64,000 nt of DNA from Nitrosospira multiformis. Its GTDB lineage: Bacteria > Pseudomonadota > Gammaproteobacteria > Burkholderiales > Nitrosomonadaceae. A program made the position numbers and the translations under genes. The stretch is from NCBI RefSeq assembly GCF_900103165.1, contig NZ_FNKY01000001.1, positions 1,612,001-1,676,000 of the forward strand, in the 5' to 3' direction. Below are positions 1-18,782 of this stretch, piece after piece. The first letter of the stretch is position 1, and the number at the start of each line of letters is the position of its first letter. The notes beneath the pieces are model-generated. The model had not been told where the DNA came from. It made no database searches and was given only the letters and a program-made list of their open reading frames with translations.

Positions 1-405
1 CATGTCGTCATGAACCCAAGAGCCGGGTTGCTAGGCGCCGCATACGAAGCGCAGCGCATGCTGCTAAAAAATGACTAGATTGTCGTCATGCTGCACTGCT
101 TGTTGTTGCGTAGAAATACTATGCCCCTCCTCGTGCCTTGTCTGACGTCAATCCAGGCATTTTTGACGTTTCGCATCTGTCATTGTTGATCTGAATCCAA
201 ACAAACTTTTGATATTATTAGCCCGATTTGCCATCAACTCGCGGCCGCCAGTAAATGGGTGCGTAGCGACCTGCCCAGAAGGTAAGGCAGATCACTCAGG
301 CTAGTCCCCGCCAGCAGGTACAAGTGCCAATGAGAGGTGCGCGGTTGGACATTTGGAGGGGCCGGATTAAGTGGATCGTTTTCCTGGATAGAAAATTGTC
401 AGCAG
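1..405. other. Stretch without a recognisable gene
   Basis: I see no convincing coding region here. The reading frame of greB stays open upstream to 337, but nothing before the ATG at 406 resembles the GreB family. The stretch presumably carries the greB promoter, which I cannot place. Confidence 0.4.
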
Positions 406-1023
406 ATGAATAAAGCATTTATAAAAGAACCAGAATCGGGCGACGGCCTGGATGAAGACGAGGCCATTGACCGATCACCTCCTATACCTGCGGGTAGCAA
501 AAACTACATCACGCCGGGTGGTCATGGGCGGTTGATGGATGAATTTCTATGGCTGATGAACAAGGAGCGCCCTCAAGTGACGGCGACGGTGTCGTGGGCC
601 GCCGGGAATGGCGATCGTTCGGAGAATGGCGATTATATCTATGGCAAAAAGCGTCTGCGCGAAATCGATCGGCGTATTCGTTTTCTGACCCGGCGCCTGG
701 ATGTGGCTGAAGTCGTGGACCCCACCGCACCGAGGGAAGATGACGAGCGAATTTTCTTCGGTGCTACGGTCACATTCACCAATCAGAAAGGCGAAGAAAA
801 AACGGTATCCATTGTGGGTGTTGACGAGATTGACACCTCAAAAGGCTACATAAGCTGGATTTCACCGATGGCGCGTGCGTTGATCAAGGCGCGGGAAGGC
901 GATGTGGTGACGCTGCACGCACCGGGCGGGGTTGAAGAACTGGAAATTCTGGAGGTCAAATACCAGACTATTCCCATGGAATTATTCGGTCAGCGGATCG
1001 ACGCAGGAAATGAGGAGATGTAG
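406..1023 (+). CDS. greB: Transcription elongation factor GreB
   Basis: GreB binds in the secondary channel of RNA polymerase and stimulates cleavage of the backtracked transcript. After a short acidic N-terminal extension, the protein has the typical N-terminal coiled coil starting at NYITPGGHGRL, with the acidic tip region (GDRSENGDYIYGKKRLREID) and then the FKBP-like C-terminal half (FFGATVTFTNQKGEE, GYISWISPMARALIKAREGD). I chose the ATG at 406 because the open frame upstream of it has no family resemblance. The product is about 205 residues, somewhat longer than the usual 160 because of the N-terminal extension. The gene stands alone; an inverted repeat follows five bases after its stop. 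Confidence 0.9.
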   Translation: MNKAFIKEPESGDGLDEDEAIDRSPPIPAGSKNYITPGGHGRLMDEFLWLMNKERPQVTATVSWAAGNGDRSENGDYIYGKKRLREIDRRIRFLTRRLDVAEVVDPTAPREDDERIFFGATVTFTNQKGEEKTVSIVGVDEIDTSKGYISWISPMARALIKAREGDVVTLHAPGGVEELEILEVKYQTIPMELFGQRIDAGNEEM

Positions 1024-1027
1024 AAAT

Positions 1028-1134
1028 GTAGAGTGCAATAAGCGAAGCGCATTGCACCGTACGAGAATCCATGAAATACCGCGACTATTGCCAGTTTCAT
1101 ACGGCGCAATGCGCTTCGCTTATTGCCGCCCTAC
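1028..1134. repeat. Inverted pair of a dispersed 35-bp repeat
   Basis: Two copies of one unit face each other at 1028-1062 and 1099-1134. The shared core reads GCAATAAGCGAAGCGCATTG on one arm and its complement on the other. The outer ends are GTAG and CTAC. A third copy lies at 5857-5891. The pair could fold into a long hairpin and may also end greB transcripts. Confidence 0.75.
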
Positions 1135-1211
1135 TTTTTATGTTTGTTGACAGATATAGCAAGCCAGCAACGCTTCTGTGAGGGATTATTCAGATATACC
1201 CTTGATTGACG

Positions 1212-2036
1212 ATGAAATCTCTCACTTCCCGCGATAATCCATTCTTCAGACAACTCATCAAGCTGGAAGATTCCGTCCGGCAACGTAGAGCAGTTGGCCT
1301 GACGCTGCTTGACGGTATTCATCTGATCAGCGCTTATCGTCTTGCGCTAGGTCCGCCGAAAACCCTTATCGTGAGCGAATCGGGTTGCGAGAACATGGAG
1401 ATAAAACGTTTGCTGGCGGAGCGGGGAGTGGACGTGGACTTGGTTGTGCTGAGCGATGTATTGTTCCGTGAGGCCTCCCCGGTAAAAACACCCACCGGCA
1501 TCATGGCGCTGATATCCATCCCTCCCGCCGCAACTATACCCGTGCATAAGGATGGAAAGGGTGAAAGGGGCGAACCTTTTTGCGTGCTGCTCGAAGCCAT
1601 GCAAGACCCCGGAAATTTGGGTTCCATCCTGCGTTCCGCCGCCGCTGCGGGCGCAAGCGACGTCTATCTCTCTGATGGTTGCGCCGATGCCTGGTCGCCC
1701 AAAACGCTGCGTGCCGCCATGGGCGCACATTTTCTGCTGCGCATACACGAACGGTCCGATCTGGTCGAAGTGGCGCGGGCGTTCAACGGCAAGGTCATTG
1801 CAACCACCTTGAAAGCTAGAATAAGCCTTTATCAGACCCAATTAACCGGCTCGATCGCGTTCGTGTTCGGCAACGAGGGTGCGGGGCTGTCGGATGCGGT
1901 GCTGCGAGCCACCAGCGAACAAATCAACATTCCCATGCTCGGAGGCACGGAATCATTGAATGCGGCTGCTGCGGCGGCGGTATGTTTTTTCGAGAGGGTG
2001 AGGCAGATGAAGAAAATTCCAAGATCTGTGTTTTAG
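1212..2036 (+). CDS. TrmH/SpoU-family RNA methyltransferase
   Basis: Predicted S-adenosylmethionine-dependent 2'-O-ribose methyltransferase acting on rRNA or tRNA. An N-terminal substrate-binding region (about residues 1-100) precedes the SPOUT domain, which shows all three family motifs: DPGNLGSILRSAAAAG, then FGNEGAGLS, then the knot-forming IPMLGGTESLNAAAAAAV near the C-terminus. The in-frame TTG at 1206 is an alternative start, but the ATG at 1212 is more likely. The exact RNA target cannot be told from sequence. It sits alone between the repeat pair and the accessory island. Confidence 0.85.
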   Translation: MKSLTSRDNPFFRQLIKLEDSVRQRRAVGLTLLDGIHLISAYRLALGPPKTLIVSESGCENMEIKRLLAERGVDVDLVVLSDVLFREASPVKTPTGIMALISIPPAATIPVHKDGKGERGEPFCVLLEAMQDPGNLGSILRSAAAAGASDVYLSDGCADAWSPKTLRAAMGAHFLLRIHERSDLVEVARAFNGKVIATTLKARISLYQTQLTGSIAFVFGNEGAGLSDAVLRATSEQINIPMLGGTESLNAAAAAAVCFFERVRQMKKIPRSVF

Positions 2037-2249
2037 ATCGCTTGACTTAAGAATTTCGGATTGAGTTGCTCTTTCATTGCCGATGCTGATGATCAGCCAC
2101 TGATCGGGTCGCACTAAGTGTAAAATTGACACATGACATTGTAGCATCGGGCTCAATAATGGCGAGCGAAGTCTTAATGCTATTGTGTCCTTTGTCTGAT
2201 AAATAACGATAATCTTTCCGATCGTTCATTAAATTGAAGTAGGACCATA

Positions 2250-2476
2250 TTGAAACAGAATCAAGATAATTTTGCCGAGTCAATTCCGACTGATGACGCG
2301 CACGGCACACCTCGTTCACGAAAACTTACTCAAGAAAAAATTGAATGGGGACTTACTAATAAACGCGCATCAATTCGATACGATTATGCTGGGCGCAAAA
2401 GCTATACGCCCACGTCAGAACAATTGGAACGAGGGCTTGCTGATAAAGATAGTCAGGTTCGATGGAGATTTGCTAC
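2250..2476 (+). pseudogene. 5' part of a 28-residue-repeat / alpha-CTD gene, cut by an IS
   Basis: This is the first part of a gene that resumes at 3645. It starts with TTG at 2250 behind an AGGA motif (2241-2244). After a polar N-terminus it encodes repeat 1 (KIEWGLTNKRASIRYDYAGR) and most of repeat 2 (QLERGLADKDSQVRWRFAT). The insertion sequence enters at the TA at 2477-2478. Removing the IS together with one TA joins the ACT codon at 2475 to AGG-GAC and restores an open frame of 514 codons. As it stands this piece would give a short product that stops inside the IS end. Confidence 0.75.
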
Positions 2477-2478
2477 TA

Positions 2479-3642
2479 GTGTAGTGAGTTAGAAATTCGT
2501 TGAATTATTTTGTGTGCTGGCTGTCTCCCAGATATTGGGTTCGAGACAGCGAGGACGAGATGGCAGGCAGACCGAGAGCGAAGCTGGTGTTGAACGAAGC
2601 TGAACAAGAACAATTGCATGCCTGGGCACGGCGGCGCAAAACGGCGCAAGCGCTGGCCTTGCGTTCGCGCATTGTTCTGGAATGTGCCGGTGGGGCGGAG
2701 AATCAGGAAGTTGCGCTCAAGCTTGCGGTGACGCGGCAGACGGTGTCGAAATGGCGCGGACGCTTTGTGCAAATGCGATTGGATGGTTTGCTGGACGCCC
2801 CCCGCTCGGGAGCGCCGCGCACGATTGATGATGCGCGTGTCGATGCCGTGATCGCCAAGACCCTGGAAGAGCAACCGTCGAATGCCACGCACTGGAGCAC
2901 GCGCACCATGGCGCGCGAAGCCAAGCTGTCGCAAACGGCGATCAGCCGTATCTGGCGTGCCTTCGGCTTGCAACCGCATCGACAAGAAACCTTCAAGCTC
3001 TCCACCGACCCCCTGTTTGTCGAAAAGACTCGTGACATCGTTGGACTGTATATCGATCCGCCGGTCAAGGCCATGGTGCTGTGCGTCGATGAGAAGAGCC
3101 AGATACAGGCGCTGGACCGGACCCAGCCTATCCTGCCGCTGGCCCCCGGCATCGCAGAACGGCGCACGCACGACTACCAGCGCCATGGCACAACTACCTT
3201 GTTTGCCGCGCTCGATATTGCTACCGGCGAGGTCATCGGACAGTTGCACCGGCGGCATCGCAGCAGCGAGTTCCTGAAATTCTTACGTATGATCGAGGCA
3301 TCGGTTCCGAGTGACCTGGACATTCATCTGGTGATGGATAACTATGGAACGCACAAGACACCCGCCATCCGCAACTGGTTCGCCCGTCATCCGCGTTTCC
3401 ATGTACATTTCACGCCGACCTCCGCCTCGTGGCTCAACCAGGTCGAGCGCTGGTTCGCCACTCTGACCGAAAAACAAATTCGCCGTGGAACCCATCGTTC
3501 GACCCGTCAATTGGAGGATGCCATTCGCCATTACCTCAAACTCAATAACGCCGGTCCAAAACCCTTTGTCTGGACCAAATCCGCCGATGACATCATTGCC
3601 AGCATCGAACGCTTTTGTCTGCGAACTTCTAACTCAGGACAC
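2479..3642 (+). mobile_element. IS630-type insertion sequence, complete
   Basis: The element is 1164 bp long and flanked by TA on both sides (2477-2478 and 3643-3644), the target duplication expected for IS630/mariner-type elements. Its ends are inverted repeats: GTGTAGTGAGTTAGAAATTC on the left against the complement of GAACTTCTAACTCAGGACAC on the right, three differences in 20. It encodes one full-length DDE transposase and looks intact, so it may still be mobile. It lies inside the second repeat of the alpha-CTD gene. Confidence 0.9.
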
Positions 3643-3645
3643 TAG
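2560..3645 (+). CDS. IS630-family DDE transposase
   Basis: The N-terminal half is a helix-turn-helix region that would bind the ends ([27 protein letters not shown]). The C-terminal half is the catalytic domain, with the DDE residues in [21 protein letters not shown] and [14 protein letters not shown] chose the ATG at 2560 (preceded by GAGGACG); the frame is open up to 2500. The stop codon TAG at 3643-3645 is formed by the target-site TA plus one host G, so the reading frame ends exactly at the element border. No frameshift is visible. Confidence 0.92.
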
Positions 3646-4960
3646 GGACGATTTGACACCAAAGCAGATCAGAAATGGGTTTACTCATAAGAATTATTCG
3701 GTTAGAGCCATCTTTGCCAAGCGCGAGGATTGCACATTTACACCAAAGCAAATCGAACGCGGACTTGCTGATGAGAAGAGTTGGGTTAGACAGGCATTTG
3801 CTGAACGTGACGATTACACCCCTACCAAAGCACAAATAGAGCGAGGATTAAGTGATAAATGCAACTCTGTTATACGGGCATTTGTCGGGCGCATCGGTTA
3901 TAAGCTTACGCGTAAACAAATGGAGCGGGGGCTTACTGATCAGGATAGTGAGGTTAGACAGATTTTTGCTGGGTACGTGACCAAGCTTTCTAAACAGAAC
4001 AGATACTTGCTCACAGCGGAGCAAATCGAACGTGGGCTTATTGATGGAAACAGTGGGGTTAGAAAGGCATTTGCTGAACGTGACGATTACATACCTACAC
4101 CTCAACAAATAGAACGCGGACTTACCGACAAGAGCGCTGACGTCAAGCGGGCATTTGCTGGCCGAAGCGATTACACGCTGACGCCAGAACAAATTGAACG
4201 TGGTCTTATTGATGGACGCAGTGGAGTTAGACAAGCATTTGCTGAACGTAACGATTACACACCTACCCCTCAACAAATAGAACGCGGACTTACTGACAAA
4301 ACCTTTGACGTTAGGTGGGTATTTGCCGGACGAAGCGATTACACGCTGACACCAATGCAAATCGAACGTGGAATTACTGATGAGTACGTTCGGATTAGAC
4401 GTCGAATAATTCGACGTAGTGATTGCACATTTACAGGAGAACAAATCAAACGAGGACTGACTGATGAGTATAGTAGCATCAGAAAGGCATTTGCTGAACG
4501 CAACAACAGTGTGCCCACGCTTGAACAAATAGAACGCGGCCTGAGTGATGAGGTCGCCCAGATCAGAGAGAACTTCGCAAAGCGCGCAGACTACACGCTC
4601 ACACCTGAGCAGATAGAGCGCGGTCTTCTTGACGGAAATAATGAGGTTAGACAAGCATTTGCTAAACGCGGCGACTATATATTTACCCCCGAGCAGGTAG
4701 AACGCGGTCTAGCTGATGAAGACAGTGTGGTGAGAGAAATATTTGCTGAACGTATTCCTATAATGGAGCATTTGGTAGATGTGCTAACTGTGCGTTCCGC
4801 CAATTGCCTTCACGCAGAAGGTATTCATTACATTGGAGATCTGATTCAGTACACCGAGAACTATCTGCTGCACATCCCGAACTTCAGTCGAAAATCGTTG
4901 CTCGAAATTAGAGAGATTCTCGCCGCGCACGGTTTATCGCTAGGCATGGCCTCTAGGTAG
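3645..4960 (+). pseudogene. 3' part of the 28-residue-repeat protein ending in an RNA polymerase alpha-CTD-like domain
   Basis: Continues the gene interrupted at 2477. With the 5' piece it makes fifteen tandem repeats of about 28 residues (consensus [20 protein letters not shown] then AxRxDYT), which should form an alpha-helical solenoid of the HEAT/LRV kind. The last 60 residues differ: [20 protein letters not shown], then [15 protein letters not shown] and GLSLGM. These match the C-terminal domain of RNA polymerase alpha closely, and they keep the positions equivalent to E. coli R265, N268, C269, K298, S299 and E302 that contact UP-element DNA. The frame is also open from an ATG at 3485 inside the IS, so a chimeric 491-residue product is possible. 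The segment is A+T-richer than its surroundings. Three bases separate it from the DUF2971 gene. Confidence 0.82.
4010..4345 (+). repeat. 168-bp higher-order tandem duplication within the repeat gene
   Basis: Repeats 7+8 (4010-4177) and 9+10 (4178-4345) form two consecutive 56-residue blocks that resemble each other more than they resemble the other repeats ([16 protein letters not shown] / [16 protein letters not shown], then [13 protein letters not shown] in both). This indicates a recent in-frame duplication and suggests that repeat number can vary. Confidence 0.75.
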
Positions 4961-4980
4961 AGGTGACAGGTTTTATTCAT

Positions 4981-5793
4981 ATGGATTCAGATACTCTTTA
5001 CCATTATTGTTCAGTTGATACCTTTGACAGTATTCTTAAAAAAAAAGAAATCTGGCTAAGTAACACAAGATTTATGAATGACTTACAAGAAGGTAGATAT
5101 ATTCATGAACTGATTCGTCAGGGTGTTAAGGATGATGATGAGTTTGTGAACTTTGCGACAAATTACAAGCGAATATATGGCGAAGCTTATGTAGCATGTT
5201 TTTCAGAAAATGGAGACTTGTTGAGCCTATGGGAAAGATATGCGAATGCTTGCAGAGGGTTTGCTATTGGTTTTGACAAGGCACTGCTAGAGGAATTGCT
5301 CGCTCAAATAACATCGGATGAACCAGATGAACACGATTCTAGTGAAGGTATTAATCTCATAAAAATAAACTATTCAAAAGATGTAGCTGATCTTTACGGA
5401 AAACTAAAGAAAAGCTACCCAAGTATGTTTAAAAAGGTGCCTAAACACAGTCTTACGATGGAAAGCTTTAGAAACGAGGATTTCGGGAAAACACTCTGGA
5501 TATATAAACATCCATTCTTTGATCAGGAACTTGAACATCGAATTATCTATTTACCCGACAAATTTAAAGAATCAAATCGAGACATCCTGGGTAATAAGGT
5601 ATCCAGACTAACCTGTGATGGTATTTGCGATCACTTTCCACTAAGATTTTCAACAGTTGAGAATATAGTCGTCCGGGTTGTTATCGGACCTTTAAACAAA
5701 GCCGGAAAGTCGGTTATAGAAGGCTATTTAAAAAACATTGGATCTTCAATCGCTGAAGTAACTTATTCCGATGGGTGTGGGGTGATTAAGTAG
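4981..5793 (+). CDS. DUF2971 family protein
   Basis: Soluble protein of about 270 residues with the landmarks of DUF2971: an N-terminal LYHYCSVDTFDSIL, then IWLSNTRFMNDLQEG, CFSENGDLLSLWERYANACR and GFAIGFDKALLEEL. The biochemical activity of the family is not established to my knowledge. I use the ATG at 4981 (ACAGG at 4966-4970); a GTG at 4963 would add six residues and begin three bases after the preceding stop. Either way it lies tightly behind the repeat/alpha-CTD gene on the same strand with similarly low G+C. The two look like an imported co-transcribed pair. Confidence 0.8.
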   Translation: MDSDTLYHYCSVDTFDSILKKKEIWLSNTRFMNDLQEGRYIHELIRQGVKDDDEFVNFATNYKRIYGEAYVACFSENGDLLSLWERYANACRGFAIGFDKALLEELLAQITSDEPDEHDSSEGINLIKINYSKDVADLYGKLKKSYPSMFKKVPKHSLTMESFRNEDFGKTLWIYKHPFFDQELEHRIIYLPDKFKESNRDILGNKVSRLTCDGICDHFPLRFSTVENIVVRVVIGPLNKAGKSVIEGYLKNIGSSIAEVTYSDGCGVIK

Positions 5794-5856
5794 TCGTAAT
5801 GTTGGATCGCCTACTCACTTCAAAATAGCAGGTTACACTTAATATGACGATTGACA

Positions 5857-5891
5857 TACGGCACAATGCGCTTCGCTTATTGATGCCCTAC
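5857..5891. repeat. Third copy of the 35-bp dispersed repeat
   Basis: The sequence from TACGGCACAATGCG to GCCCTAC matches the right arm of the pair at 1028-1134. Its end supplies the stop codon of the MBL-fold gene on the minus strand (5888-5890). It marks the right border of the accessory stretch. Confidence 0.7.
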
Positions 5892-6898
5892 GGTTTATAT
5901 TCAACCCCCCCCATCTGATCCAGCCAGTGTTCCAGTCCCTGGGCATTTAGTCCGACATCTAGACTTAACAGATCACGAATTTCATCGTGTGGCAGTTTGC
6001 AGCCATGCGCGATGATCCGCTGTAACAACAGCGTTCCAAGTTCTTCCACCAATGCCGCATGCCTGTCGGGGACGTCGCGCAGCTTCCTGGCTATCGTTGC
6101 ATGGGCATCGATCAGATCATGCATCTCCCCGGCATGGCGTGGCAAGTGGCCGATGCGGCCGTAGTGGGTCAGGAAGGCGTAGGCTGGATCATAACTCATG
6201 ATGCGCTCGATCGAAGCATGGGCGGCCACGGGATCGAACTGCACCGGTGTGGTGGTGGGAAAGACGAATTCCATTCCGTCCACGTCAAATTCGCGATAAG
6301 AAAGGCCAAATGTATCGCCGGTAAAAAATGACTGGTTTTTTTTATCGAAGATACAGTAGTGATGGCGCGCATGGCCCGGCGTATCCAGGAACAGTAATGG
6401 CCTGCCATTAAAGTCCAGAGTGAAGCCATCTGGTGCTTCGACTATGCGGCTTGCATCCACCGGGCGAATCACGCCATACATGCGTTTGAATTCCGCTTCG
6501 CCATAAACTGTCATTGCGCTGGCGACGAGCCGGGCGGGATCAGCCATATGCCGCGCGCCGCGCGGATGCACCACCAGTTTCGCACGGGGAAAACTGTGCA
6601 TGAATTCACCCGCGCCGCCGGCATGGTCGAGATGTATGTGAGTAACGAATACATAGGCCACATCCTCAGGGGCAAGATTTTTTTTTCGCAATACTTCCAT
6701 CACGCCGGCAACGGAAGATGAAGTTCCCGTATCCACCAGCGCCGCTCTACTGCCCTCGACGATCAGGTGAATCGCAGCGAGCCCTGGCCGCAAGTAGTCC
6801 GCATCGATAGCGCTGACACCGTTGTCATAATCGGTGATGCGGGGCAAGGCGGAGGGCGTGGCAAGCGTCTTCGCCCCATGAGACAAATTGTTGTGCAT
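5888..6898 (-). CDS. MBL-fold metallo-hydrolase
   Basis: Metallo-beta-lactamase-fold hydrolase of 336 residues. The metal site is intact: THIHLDHAGG (HxHxDH) near residue 90, a later histidine in DTPGHARHH, and the aspartate in FFTGDTFGL. The C-terminal 90 residues form a helical extension. The substrate cannot be inferred; glyoxalase-II-like and lactonase-like enzymes share this layout. It lies 25 bp beyond the end of acs on the same strand and could be read from the same transcript. Its stop codon lies in the repeat at 5857-5891. Confidence 0.82.
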   Translation of the reverse strand: MHNNLSHGAKTLATPSALPRITDYDNGVSAIDADYLRPGLAAIHLIVEGSRAALVDTGTSSSVAGVMEVLRKKNLAPEDVAYVFVTHIHLDHAGGAGEFMHSFPRAKLVVHPRGARHMADPARLVASAMTVYGEAEFKRMYGVIRPVDASRIVEAPDGFTLDFNGRPLLFLDTPGHARHHYCIFDKKNQSFFTGDTFGLSYREFDVDGMEFVFPTTTPVQFDPVAAHASIERIMSYDPAYAFLTHYGRIGHLPRHAGEMHDLIDAHATIARKLRDVPDRHAALVEELGTLLLQRIIAHGCKLPHDEIRDLLSLDVGLNAQGLEHWLDQMGGVEYKP

Positions 6899-6923
6899 AG
6901 GAGAATGAGGTGTAATGCGCGAA

Positions 6924-8891
<1,968 letters not shown>

Positions 8892-8930
8892 GGGGTGCTC
8901 CGGTAAGTATTTTCTGGAAAAGAGGTATAT

Positions 8931-9098
8931 TTAACCCGAATGCTTCATAAATTGACGCGTATCTCGCTGGTCTTTTGTCTCGCATGGAAATTTTGTTCAG
9001 TCGGGCGTATGAATAACTACACCACTCTTTCACAGAATCTCCCTGAAAAACAAAATACTGCTCAATCATCACACGAATTTATGAAACATCTGGGTTAA
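8931..9098. mobile_element. 168-bp MITE-like element, copy 1
   Basis: The terminal inverted repeats run from TTAACCCGAATGCTTCATAA to TTATGAAACATCTGGGTTAA (20 of 23 positions pair). A second copy of nearly the same length is at 40742-40908. No transposase is encoded. On the plus strand both copies hold an open frame of 29 codons (here 9009-9098) starting MNNYTTLSQNLP and ending at the element's own TAA. Confidence 0.85.
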
Positions 9099-15432: not shown

Positions 15433-15669
15433 CCTAAGTCCGGCAGTTGACCGCTCATTTAATAGATCAGTGTTTTGATTAATAACAATATTTCGTATTA
15501 TTTCACGCTCACCTTCTGGGTCAGTCCGCTACAGGGCAGATTGCACGGTTTTTACGGCGCATGGCAGTGTTGCAACTCCTTGGATGGAATGACCATTCCG
15601 CGTCGTTGCGCCTTGCCCTGCACCCCAAAAACCGCACACTCCGCCTCGTCCAACCGCCGGATTTAGGAT
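15433..15669. repeat. 237-bp element with inverted ends and nested internal hairpins
   Basis: The left end CCTAAGTCCGGCAGTTGACC is complementary to the right end CCAACCGCCGGATTTAGG. Inside are further inverted segments (a GGTTTTTACGG / CCAAAAACCGC pair and GGAATGACCATTCC). Elements with the same termini occur at 48263-48382. The right end overlaps the stop codon of the receiver-PAS gene. No coding capacity. Confidence 0.65.
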
Positions 15670-16505
15670 GAATTTTGCTTCTCACGCATGCTTTCGGTGA
15701 CATCCTTGCCAATTCCACGATAGCCGGTGAAACGGCCGGATGAATCGAACATCGGTTCGCCGCTGACCATCAGATATTGTCGTGAGCCATCGGATTTGGT
15801 GCGGCTGTAGACAAAATCAAGGAAGGGGCGCCGTGCTGCGATGTTTGCCTTGAATACCGCATAGTCGGCCTCATCCCAGCGGGCCTTGTTGTTTCCTTGA
15901 GGTTCACCCAGTAAGGCATCAACGGTAATGCCGAGCATTTCGAGGGCTGGACCATACACCTTGGTGAAACGCCCGTTCTCGTCCTGCTCCCAATACCAGT
16001 CGGAGGCCAGCTCGGTCAGGCGGCGAAAGCGCGCCTCGCTCTCGCGCAATTCCGCGGTTCGCTCAGCCACGGTCTGTTCCAGCCGCTTGTTGTAATTCTC
16101 GAGTTTTTTGTATAACAGGCGCACTTCCAGCATGTTGTGGATGCGTGTCTGGACTTCGACCAGATCGAACGGCTTGCTGACGAAATCTTTTGCACCGGCT
16201 TGCAGCGCCTGCAGCTTATGGCCCGGCTGGGCGGTGATCACGAGTACCGGAAGGTAGCCATCCGGTTCTATTGCCTTCAAACCTTCGAGCACCTGGAAGC
16301 CATCCATGCCGGGCATTTGCAGATCGAGCAGAATCAGATCATAGCGGTTCTGGCGATAGAGCGGGCAAACCTCGTAGGGGTCCATGGTCGAGGTAGTATG
16401 GGTATAACCGGCGTCGCTCAGCATCTGTTCAAGCAGCCGGACATTGACATCCTTATCATCAACAATCAGGATGCTGGCGTTAAGAATGTCAGGTTTGCTA
16501 ATCAT
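15663..16505 (-). CDS. Response regulator with receiver and PAS domains (copy 1)
   Basis: 280 residues. An N-terminal receiver domain (ILIVDDKDVNVRLLEQ, phospho-acceptor Asp in LILLDLQMPGMDGFQVLE, conserved Lys in FVSKPFDLVE) leads through a coiled coil (about 130-165) to a PAS domain ending in YRGIGKDVTES. The protein stops right after the PAS fold, where such proteins usually continue into a GGDEF, EAL or kinase domain, so it may be a truncated sensor. It is almost identical to the gene at 17919-18782. Its last codons lie at the border of the inverted-repeat element. Confidence 0.85.
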   Translation of the reverse strand: MISKPDILNASILIVDDKDVNVRLLEQMLSDAGYTHTTSTMDPYEVCPLYRQNRYDLILLDLQMPGMDGFQVLEGLKAIEPDGYLPVLVITAQPGHKLQALQAGAKDFVSKPFDLVEVQTRIHNMLEVRLLYKKLENYNKRLEQTVAERTAELRESEARFRRLTELASDWYWEQDENGRFTKVYGPALEMLGITVDALLGEPQGNNKARWDEADYAVFKANIAARRPFLDFVYSRTKSDGSRQYLMVSGEPMFDSSGRFTGYRGIGKDVTESMREKQNSS

Positions 16506-17918: not shown

Positions 17919-18782
17919 TTATGTAACCATACTGAACCGGCGTACTCGGTTAACCGGCCGTATACTTTCGGTGACATCCTTGCCAATTCCACGATAGCCG
18001 GTGAAACGGCCGGATGAATCGAACATCGGTTCGCCGCTGACCATCAGATATTGTCGTGAGCCATCGGATTTGGTGCGGCTGTAGACAAAATCAAGGAAGG
18101 GGCGCCGTGCTGCGATGTTTGCCTTGAGTACCGCGTAGTCAGACTCATCCCAGCGTGCCTTGTTGCTTCCTTGAGGTTCACCCAGTAATGCATCGACGGT
18201 AATGCCGAACATTTCGAGGGCCGGACCATACACCTTGGTGAAATGCCCGTTCTCGTCCTGCTCCCAATACCAGTCGGAGGCCAACTCGGTCAGGCGGCGA
18301 AAGCGCGCCTCGCTCGTTCGCAGTTCCGTGGTTCGCTCAGCCACGGTCTGTTCCAGTTGCTTGTTGTAATTTTCGAGTTTTTTGTATAACAGGCGCACTT
18401 CCAGCATGTTGTGGATGCGTGTCTGGACTTCGACCAGATCGAACGGCTTGCTGACGAAATCTTTTGCACCGGCTTGCAGTGCCTGCAGCTTATGGCCCGG
18501 CTGGGCGGTGATTACGAGTACCGGAAGGTAGCCATCCGGTTCTATTGCCTTCAAACCTTCGAGCACCTGGAAGCCATCCATGCCGGGCATTTGCAGATCG
18601 AGCAGAATCAGATCATAACGGTTCTGGCGATAGAGCGGGCAAACCTCGTAGGGATCCATGGTCGAGGTGGTATGGGTATAACCGGCATCACCTAATACTT
18701 GCTCAAGCAGCCGGACATTGACATCCTTATCATCGACAATCAGGATGCTGGCGTTAAAAATATCGGATTTGCTAATCATCAT
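17919..18782 (-). CDS. Response regulator with receiver and PAS domains (copy 2)
   Basis: Same architecture and nearly the same sequence as the gene at 15663-16505 from the N-terminus to YRGIGKDVTES. Beyond that point the sequences diverge and this copy ends in an unrelated tail (IRPVNRVRRFSMVT). Differences are scattered and mostly silent or conservative. The start is ATG at 18782 or at 18779. The gene could phosphorelay with, or titrate, the same partner as copy 1. Confidence 0.85.
   Translation of the reverse strand: MMISKSDIFNASILIVDDKDVNVRLLEQVLGDAGYTHTTSTMDPYEVCPLYRQNRYDLILLDLQMPGMDGFQVLEGLKAIEPDGYLPVLVITAQPGHKLQALQAGAKDFVSKPFDLVEVQTRIHNMLEVRLLYKKLENYNKQLEQTVAERTTELRTSEARFRRLTELASDWYWEQDENGHFTKVYGPALEMFGITVDALLGEPQGSNKARWDESDYAVLKANIAARRPFLDFVYSRTKSDGSRQYLMVSGEPMFDSSGRFTGYRGIGKDVTESIRPVNRVRRFSMVT

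Follow-up and report, generated by a model that had tools for sequence, protein, structure and literature searches.

A gene of Nitrosospira multiformis, here called gene 1, encodes a long solenoid of helical repeats that ends in the C-terminal domain of the RNA polymerase alpha subunit (alpha-CTD), and this architecture of its product is firm. The gene lies in the window, that is, the whole 64,000-nucleotide stretch of DNA that was analysed, immediately upstream of a gene for a DUF2971 protein, and it is interrupted by an IS630-type insertion. Reuse of the alpha-CTD outside the polymerase is not new; its solenoid partner is, which makes the protein a new combination of known modules. The alpha-CTD is the hub through which bacterial RNA polymerase responds to activators and to the DNA upstream, and its placement on a long solenoid, beside a defence-candidate gene, would suit either promoter tethering or the baiting of phages that take over transcription. 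Our preferred reading, possible rather than probable, is that of a horizontally acquired two-gene cassette in which the alpha-CTD would tether a protein-binding solenoid to DNA and act with the DUF2971 protein, the cassette being now interrupted.

The larger part of gene 1, the C piece, is a single open frame on the forward strand at window 3647-4957, in which 13 helical repeats (3647-4768) precede the alpha-CTD. The repeats are of 28 residues each, with one exception of 35 residues, and the last of them leads directly into the tail. The alpha-CTD covers 55 residues at 4784-4948 (L262 to M316 in E. coli numbering), and the gene ends three residues further on, with its stop codon at 4958-4960. 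The match to PF03118 that the earlier note had proposed to look for in the C-terminal residues is indeed significant, with 61.7 bits and an E-value of 5.5e-17 against a cut-off of 23.8; in a PF03118 search of the genome itself, the match lies at window 4784-4924 and reaches 65.2 bits. Upstream of the insertion, the N piece (2250-2489, forward strand) consists of about 25 leading residues, the first repeat and the beginning of the next one; the element, which the frame enters from about position 2479, truncates this second repeat. The phases of the two pieces agree across the element, and with its 1166 bases omitted they amount to 15 repeats and 514 codons, by arithmetic only and with no letters joined. 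Both the 514-residue length and the fifteen repeats of the earlier note are thus recovered, the latter as 13 repeats in the C piece and two in the N piece, of which one has 35 residues instead of 28.

A repeat table of 13 rows was compiled from 12 repeats of the C piece, leaving out the 35-residue one, and one row of the N piece that is one residue out of register. In 12 of these 13 rows, columns T1, Q4, G8 and R23 are fixed, while columns 13, 15 and 24 are the most variable. A TALE-like reading of the motif 'LTPEQ' was dropped on the basis of repeat length and pattern. Scans for promoters and terminators gave nothing above shuffled sequences, and Rfam at the gathering threshold gave no match in window 1-9000.

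The interrupting element occupies 2479-3644 on the forward strand (1166 bases, including one TA copy), with a transposase frame at 2500-3645 that matches DDE_3 with 73.6 bits and HTH_32 with 56.1 bits. TA is present at both of its ends, and 21 of the first 30 bases pair as inverted repeats. It therefore carries the DDE transposase, the terminal TA and the inverted repeats that are features of the IS630 family. The genome holds three copies of the element with 100% identity over 1160 bases, and the insertion into gene 1 is probably recent because these copies are identical. Since the gene is interrupted, the full-length protein is not made from one frame in this strain.

The fold of the solenoid was predicted with AF2 from the C piece aligned to eight relatives of its repeats, an alignment that contains no other alpha-CTD. 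The mean pLDDT of the model is 88.1, with ten-residue blocks between 82 and 98 up to residue 370, and two short helices are predicted in each repeat. The tail scores 48-64 with this same alignment lacking other alpha-CTDs, and its alpha-CTD fold is assigned from sequence identity. Among the top 24 Foldseek matches listed from the PDB, one designed repeat protein excepted, the solenoid is mainly matched by PP2A HEAT scaffolds, which superpose poorly at an rmsd of 8.3-13.7. A better fit is obtained with 1LRV, the structure of a leucine-rich repeat variant (LRV) protein, which gives an E-value of 4.5e-5, a TM-score of 0.67 by target length and an rmsd of 4.1, and several phage proteins named 'Leucine rich repeat variant' match the solenoid in a viral structure library. 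With the HEAT profile PF02985, the protein as a whole scores 41.8 bits, but no single stretch of it passes the cut-off of 23.5, and Pfam LRV yields no row for the gene product at E-values up to 1. As modelled, the solenoid is LRV/HEAT-like. In particular, it shares with 1LRV stacked helical repeats and 21% identity over 248 columns, whereas its repeats have another consensus and no Pfam LRV match. LRV proteins carry an iron-sulphur cluster, for which cysteine is missing from the N piece.

The tail is closely related to RpoA. Its best relatives among solved structures in a phmmer search are alpha subunits (E-value 3.3e-19, residues 356-434), and the alignment to them suggests that RpoA-like sequence starts right after the last repeat. 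Over the 55 residues, identity to the RpoA of the same genome is 71%, and it reaches 76% with an RpoA from a different family within the order. The term 'mimic' used in the earlier note is therefore too strong, as the tail is homologous to the alpha-CTD and other proteins outside RpoA possess one. The product itself is not an RpoA: the equivalog model TIGR02027 gives 56.1 bits, below its cut-off of 227.8, with profile positions 243-297 alone matched, so that both the N-terminal domain and the whole-protein score of an RpoA are missing. It differs from the polymerase subunit in lacking the alpha N-terminal domain and in the fused solenoid, with about 10 residues between solenoid and domain, and the tail itself in the change G296S, in the absence of E261 and R317 and in ending three residues past M316. 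In comparison with six RpoA genes, the tail shows 25-55% identity at third codon positions and 87-91% at second ones; dN is 0.19-0.23, while dS is 1.03 in one comparison and saturated (not computable) in five. These values point to a divergence that is old and constrained on average, an average in which constraint on RpoA and constraint on the tail are not distinguished. A recent capture from the rpoA of the same genome is ruled out by an identity of 36% at third codon positions.

The tail was also compared with 47 further alpha-CTDs, of which 35 are distinct; they are mostly from RpoA, including that of the same genome, with a few non-RpoA or unusual ones such as L090 and L091 retained. Conservation among them reaches 95% or more at 20 positions; the tail keeps 19 of these and has lost G296. 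Seven of its residues, H271, Y284, Y288, H291, S296, L301 and R304, are absent from all 47, and K271H, R284Y and K291H are basic losses that occur in none of them. Lysine and arginine together count 4 in the tail versus 8 in the domain of the genome's own RpoA, and the net charge is -1 versus +2. We take R265, N268, C269, N294, G296, K298, S299 and E302, in E. coli numbering, to be the positions by which the alpha-CTD contacts DNA. Seven of these eight are kept (R265, N268, C269, N294, K298, S299 and E302), which is not clearly above what 71% overall identity predicts, and the eighth, G296, is a serine. E261 stands opposite a gap in both alignments, R317 is replaced by alanine and position 288 is a tyrosine; E261, 288 and 317 are presumably places at which alpha contacts sigma or CRP. 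DNA contact by the tail is plausible, to judge by its residues, because almost all contact positions are kept; the basic residues are halved, however, and this loss together with G296S weakens the case for DNA binding. The earlier statement that the UP-element contacts are retained thus holds apart from G296, with the reduction in basic residues to be set against it. R265 and N268 are given as DNA-contact residues in a published source (PMC11434276).

Domains of this kind outside RpoA are found elsewhere. PF03118 is present in 385 of 398 genomes of the phylum, and besides the genome under study, 17 of them have more than one match, as counted by eye. The extra matches inspected include two SNF2-type proteins, small proteins of 157-204 residues and extra rpoA-like genes. 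In one SNF2-type protein (G270, L092 823-5760), Pfam places an alpha-CTD together with a ROS/MucR domain; in the other (G359, L090 6201-10718), the SNF2 type was recognised by eye, and its reading frame shares sequence with the end of an rpoA-like gene. Small proteins with an alpha-CTD occur at L091, L097 and L100. Alpha-CTD-like segments also occur in a protein of Ruegeria phage vB_RpoS-V16 annotated as HTH-domain or pyrophosphatase (L149 1150-2262) and at the C-terminus of a 133-residue frame in a viral contig (L145 351-749). The phage matches MT839982 and MT836419 were rejected as fusions, since they look RpoA-like. These non-RpoA proteins (L092, L090, L091, L097, L100, L145 and L149) share with gene 1 the reuse of the alpha-CTD and differ from it in having no repeats of the gene 1 kind; such repeats are absent from the 1136 ORFs of 17 loci with extra or phage alpha-CTDs, some of them RpoA-like.

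The repeats, in turn, have relatives in which the alpha-CTD is missing. A pattern scan with the repeat alignment over one genome per species (84,980 species) returned 17 loci: ten from Gallionellales/Nitrosomonadales, three contigs of one Acidithiobacillus ferrivorans genome, two from Sulfuritalea, one from Burkholderiales (L040) and one from an alphaproteobacterial MAG. All 17 carry such repeats, in frames of 84-578 residues. The proteins have the same repeat at 49-63% identity, with lengths of 116-118 residues in Gallionellales/Nitrosomonadales and 578 residues in L040, but no alpha-CTD occurs in any ORF there. Indeed, an alpha-CTD profile found none in the 1846 ORFs of these loci, two stretches of genome G142 and one of G820; in a generous control, as the profile includes the window tail, the window gene was found at 1.6e-37. 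In seven of the ten Gallionellales/Nitrosomonadales loci (L032, L034, L036, L037, L039, L041 and L047), a four-repeat protein of 116-118 residues lies between chorismate synthase-like and quinone oxidoreductase-like genes, as judged by eye.

Among 399 genomes of the order, a repeat profile matched the genome itself, G142 and, weakly (30.9 bits), G820. G142 has four repeats together with Sel1, while G820 was discarded as a weak candidate in whose stretch the 28-residue profile finds no repeats. A search with the C piece in 199 relatives did not find the same layout, and besides the genome itself, G064 and G142 alone gave more than one match, yet G064 has a single PF03118 match. Nor was the layout found with the repeats in 398 genomes of the phylum, where G545 was set aside as a low-complexity repetitive protein. 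The same layout was also sought in genome contigs, viral contigs, plasmids and phages, and none was found (for plasmids and phages, among the matches listed). These searches are samples that depend on similar repeats or on exact short patterns and may miss near relatives. Searches of the open-access literature brought up no description of a solenoid joined to an alpha-CTD. The partial searches made thus yield no second example, in agreement with the earlier note, which knew of no such protein; the homologues with the same order of repeats and domain that it had hoped to compare were not found and, because of this, there is no conserved link to DUF2971.

The genome comprises 3.5 Mb in two contigs and is 99.9% complete; its three matches to the AMO family, all with the same score, make it very likely that the organism is an ammonia oxidiser. 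As assigned by eye, the neighbouring genes encode a greB-like protein (337-1023), a TrmH-type methyltransferase (1206-2036), a protein with a metallo-beta-lactamase fold (MBL, 5888-6898) and an acetyl-CoA synthetase (6924-8891), and the slot between trmH and the MBL gene (2037-5887) holds gene 1 and the DUF2971 gene. The MBL and acetyl-CoA synthetase genes adjoin in all 22 congeners. In 15 of the 22, trmH lies at most 250 bases from the MBL gene, with the slot short or empty; the distance is about 530 bases in L117 and larger in three (G021, G004 and G005), and three others (L105, L113 and L119) show no trmH within the sequence examined. GC content is 0.40 in the spacer at 2037-2249, 0.43-0.48 in gene 1, 0.365 in the DUF2971 gene and 0.53-0.56 in the four flanking genes. 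The two-gene slot looks like horizontally acquired cargo, a foreign origin being suggested by the deviating GC and the variable slot. No repeat or alpha-CTD gene was found in the stretches of G021, G014, G004 and G005.

What the slot carries differs between species of the genus, as seen in the window and in L125, L127 and L128 (G021, G004 and G005, respectively): by eye, a sensor kinase and response regulator in G021, an OmpA-like lipoprotein in G004 and about 6.5 kb of sequence that includes a DNA methylase-like gene in G005. A short repeat around caatgcgcttcgcttattg, also noticed by eye, occurs at window 1030-1130 and at about 5855-5895, flanking the block from trmH to the DUF2971 gene, and the latter copy has 29- and 41-base matches in L106 and L113.

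The DUF2971 gene (4981-5793, forward strand, 270 residues) starts 20 bases past the stop codon of gene 1, with an alternative GTG start at 4963. It matches PF11185 with 29.5 bits (cut-off 22), phrog_1762 with an E-value of 1.2e-24 and, over residues 50-109 only, the PADLOC defence-candidate model PDC-S31 (best E-value 8.8e-10), so that a link to defence is suggested by one profile library. The conserved positions HY, ND..E, W..Y and E..R are common to it and seven relatives, and an ADP-ribosyltransferase fold would be a guess from the HY...E pattern. A single-sequence AF2 model has a mean pLDDT of 35.3, and a PDB sequence search gave just one row at chance level (E-value 0.81). The relatives share the PF11185 match with the cassette but not the adjoining gene: no repeat or alpha-CTD gene is present in the 575 ORFs of their seven stretches. 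One of these relatives is another DUF2971 gene in the genome under study (G000:C1:2603063-2603635; L135 4773-5657), with no such gene in the 10.5 kb examined.

From the architecture, the homology, the pattern of kept residues, the deviating composition, the variable slot and the identical IS copies, the following role can be proposed for the cassette. Gene 1 would supply a long LRV/HEAT-like solenoid as a protein-binding scaffold, fused to an alpha-CTD of RpoA origin. The alpha-CTD would hold this solenoid on A/T-rich DNA via the minor-groove contacts that it keeps. There the solenoid would bind a partner, which may be the DUF2971 protein or part of the transcription machinery, and in this way the pair of solenoid and DUF2971 protein might act, or be regulated, at promoters. 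It is DNA binding, partner binding and a joint function with DUF2971 that we infer here. The retained contact residues, the cassette arrangement and the long divergence under constraint speak for this proposal, whereas G296S, the halving of basic residues and the failure of the searches to reveal a conserved partner speak against it.

The alternative with the next best claim, though an unlikely one, is that the alpha-CTD is a folded end cap or protein-interaction module whose fold is kept for stability or for a partner and makes no DNA contact. The loss of basic residues, G296S and the negative net charge would fit it, as would the alpha-CTD-like segments of SNF2-type, phage and small proteins, which indicate that the domain is reused in varied settings; it does not readily explain why R265, N268, C269, N294, K298, S299 and E302 were kept while other positions changed. 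An extra alpha-CTD could also displace that of the polymerase from UP elements or activators, a competition that the earlier note had raised. The kept DNA-contact residues agree with its DNA side, which is plausible, while the tail lacks E261 and R317, contact points of alpha, and is less likely to compete for sigma or activators; with Y288 and half the basic residues gone in addition, we regard displacement as a whole as rather improbable.

About as improbable is a role as guard, in which the alpha-CTD would serve as bait: phage factors that attack alpha at Arg265, by modifying or seizing it, would act on the bait, and the solenoid would signal to, release or activate a DUF2971 effector. T4 Alt and ModA are reported to modify Arg265 of alpha (PMC2988021), and in another host alpha is reported to be cleaved as a result of phage Rac (PMC7552054); a bait role is therefore conceivable. 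The Alt/ModA target R265 is kept, the DUF2971 protein partly matches a defence-candidate model, and the cassette is AT-rich and sits in a variable slot. Against this, R265 would also be preserved by DNA binding, and the searches revealed no homologous pair; in the stretches examined, neither the second DUF2971 gene of the genome nor any of six other relatives has such a neighbour, and the DUF2971 model is of low confidence. Finally, the end of an rpoA gene might have been joined to a repeat gene by assembly error, the case that the earlier note had named against itself, or the fusion might be a chance event in a dead gene. The layout is indeed known from one genome only and the gene is interrupted; nevertheless, the repeats and the domain share one open frame on a 3.47 Mb contig, and the genome's own rpoA is a separate, intact gene at C1:3.085 Mb with 65% DNA identity over the domain and the low third-position identity given above. 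A chimera is unlikely because the true rpoA lies elsewhere, and an artefact of either kind is highly improbable. The tethering cassette remains the reading that we prefer.

Elsewhere in the window, two near-alike response-regulator/PAS-like proteins (15663-16505 and 17919-18782), as judged by eye, lie around a third regulator with a GGDEF-like part.
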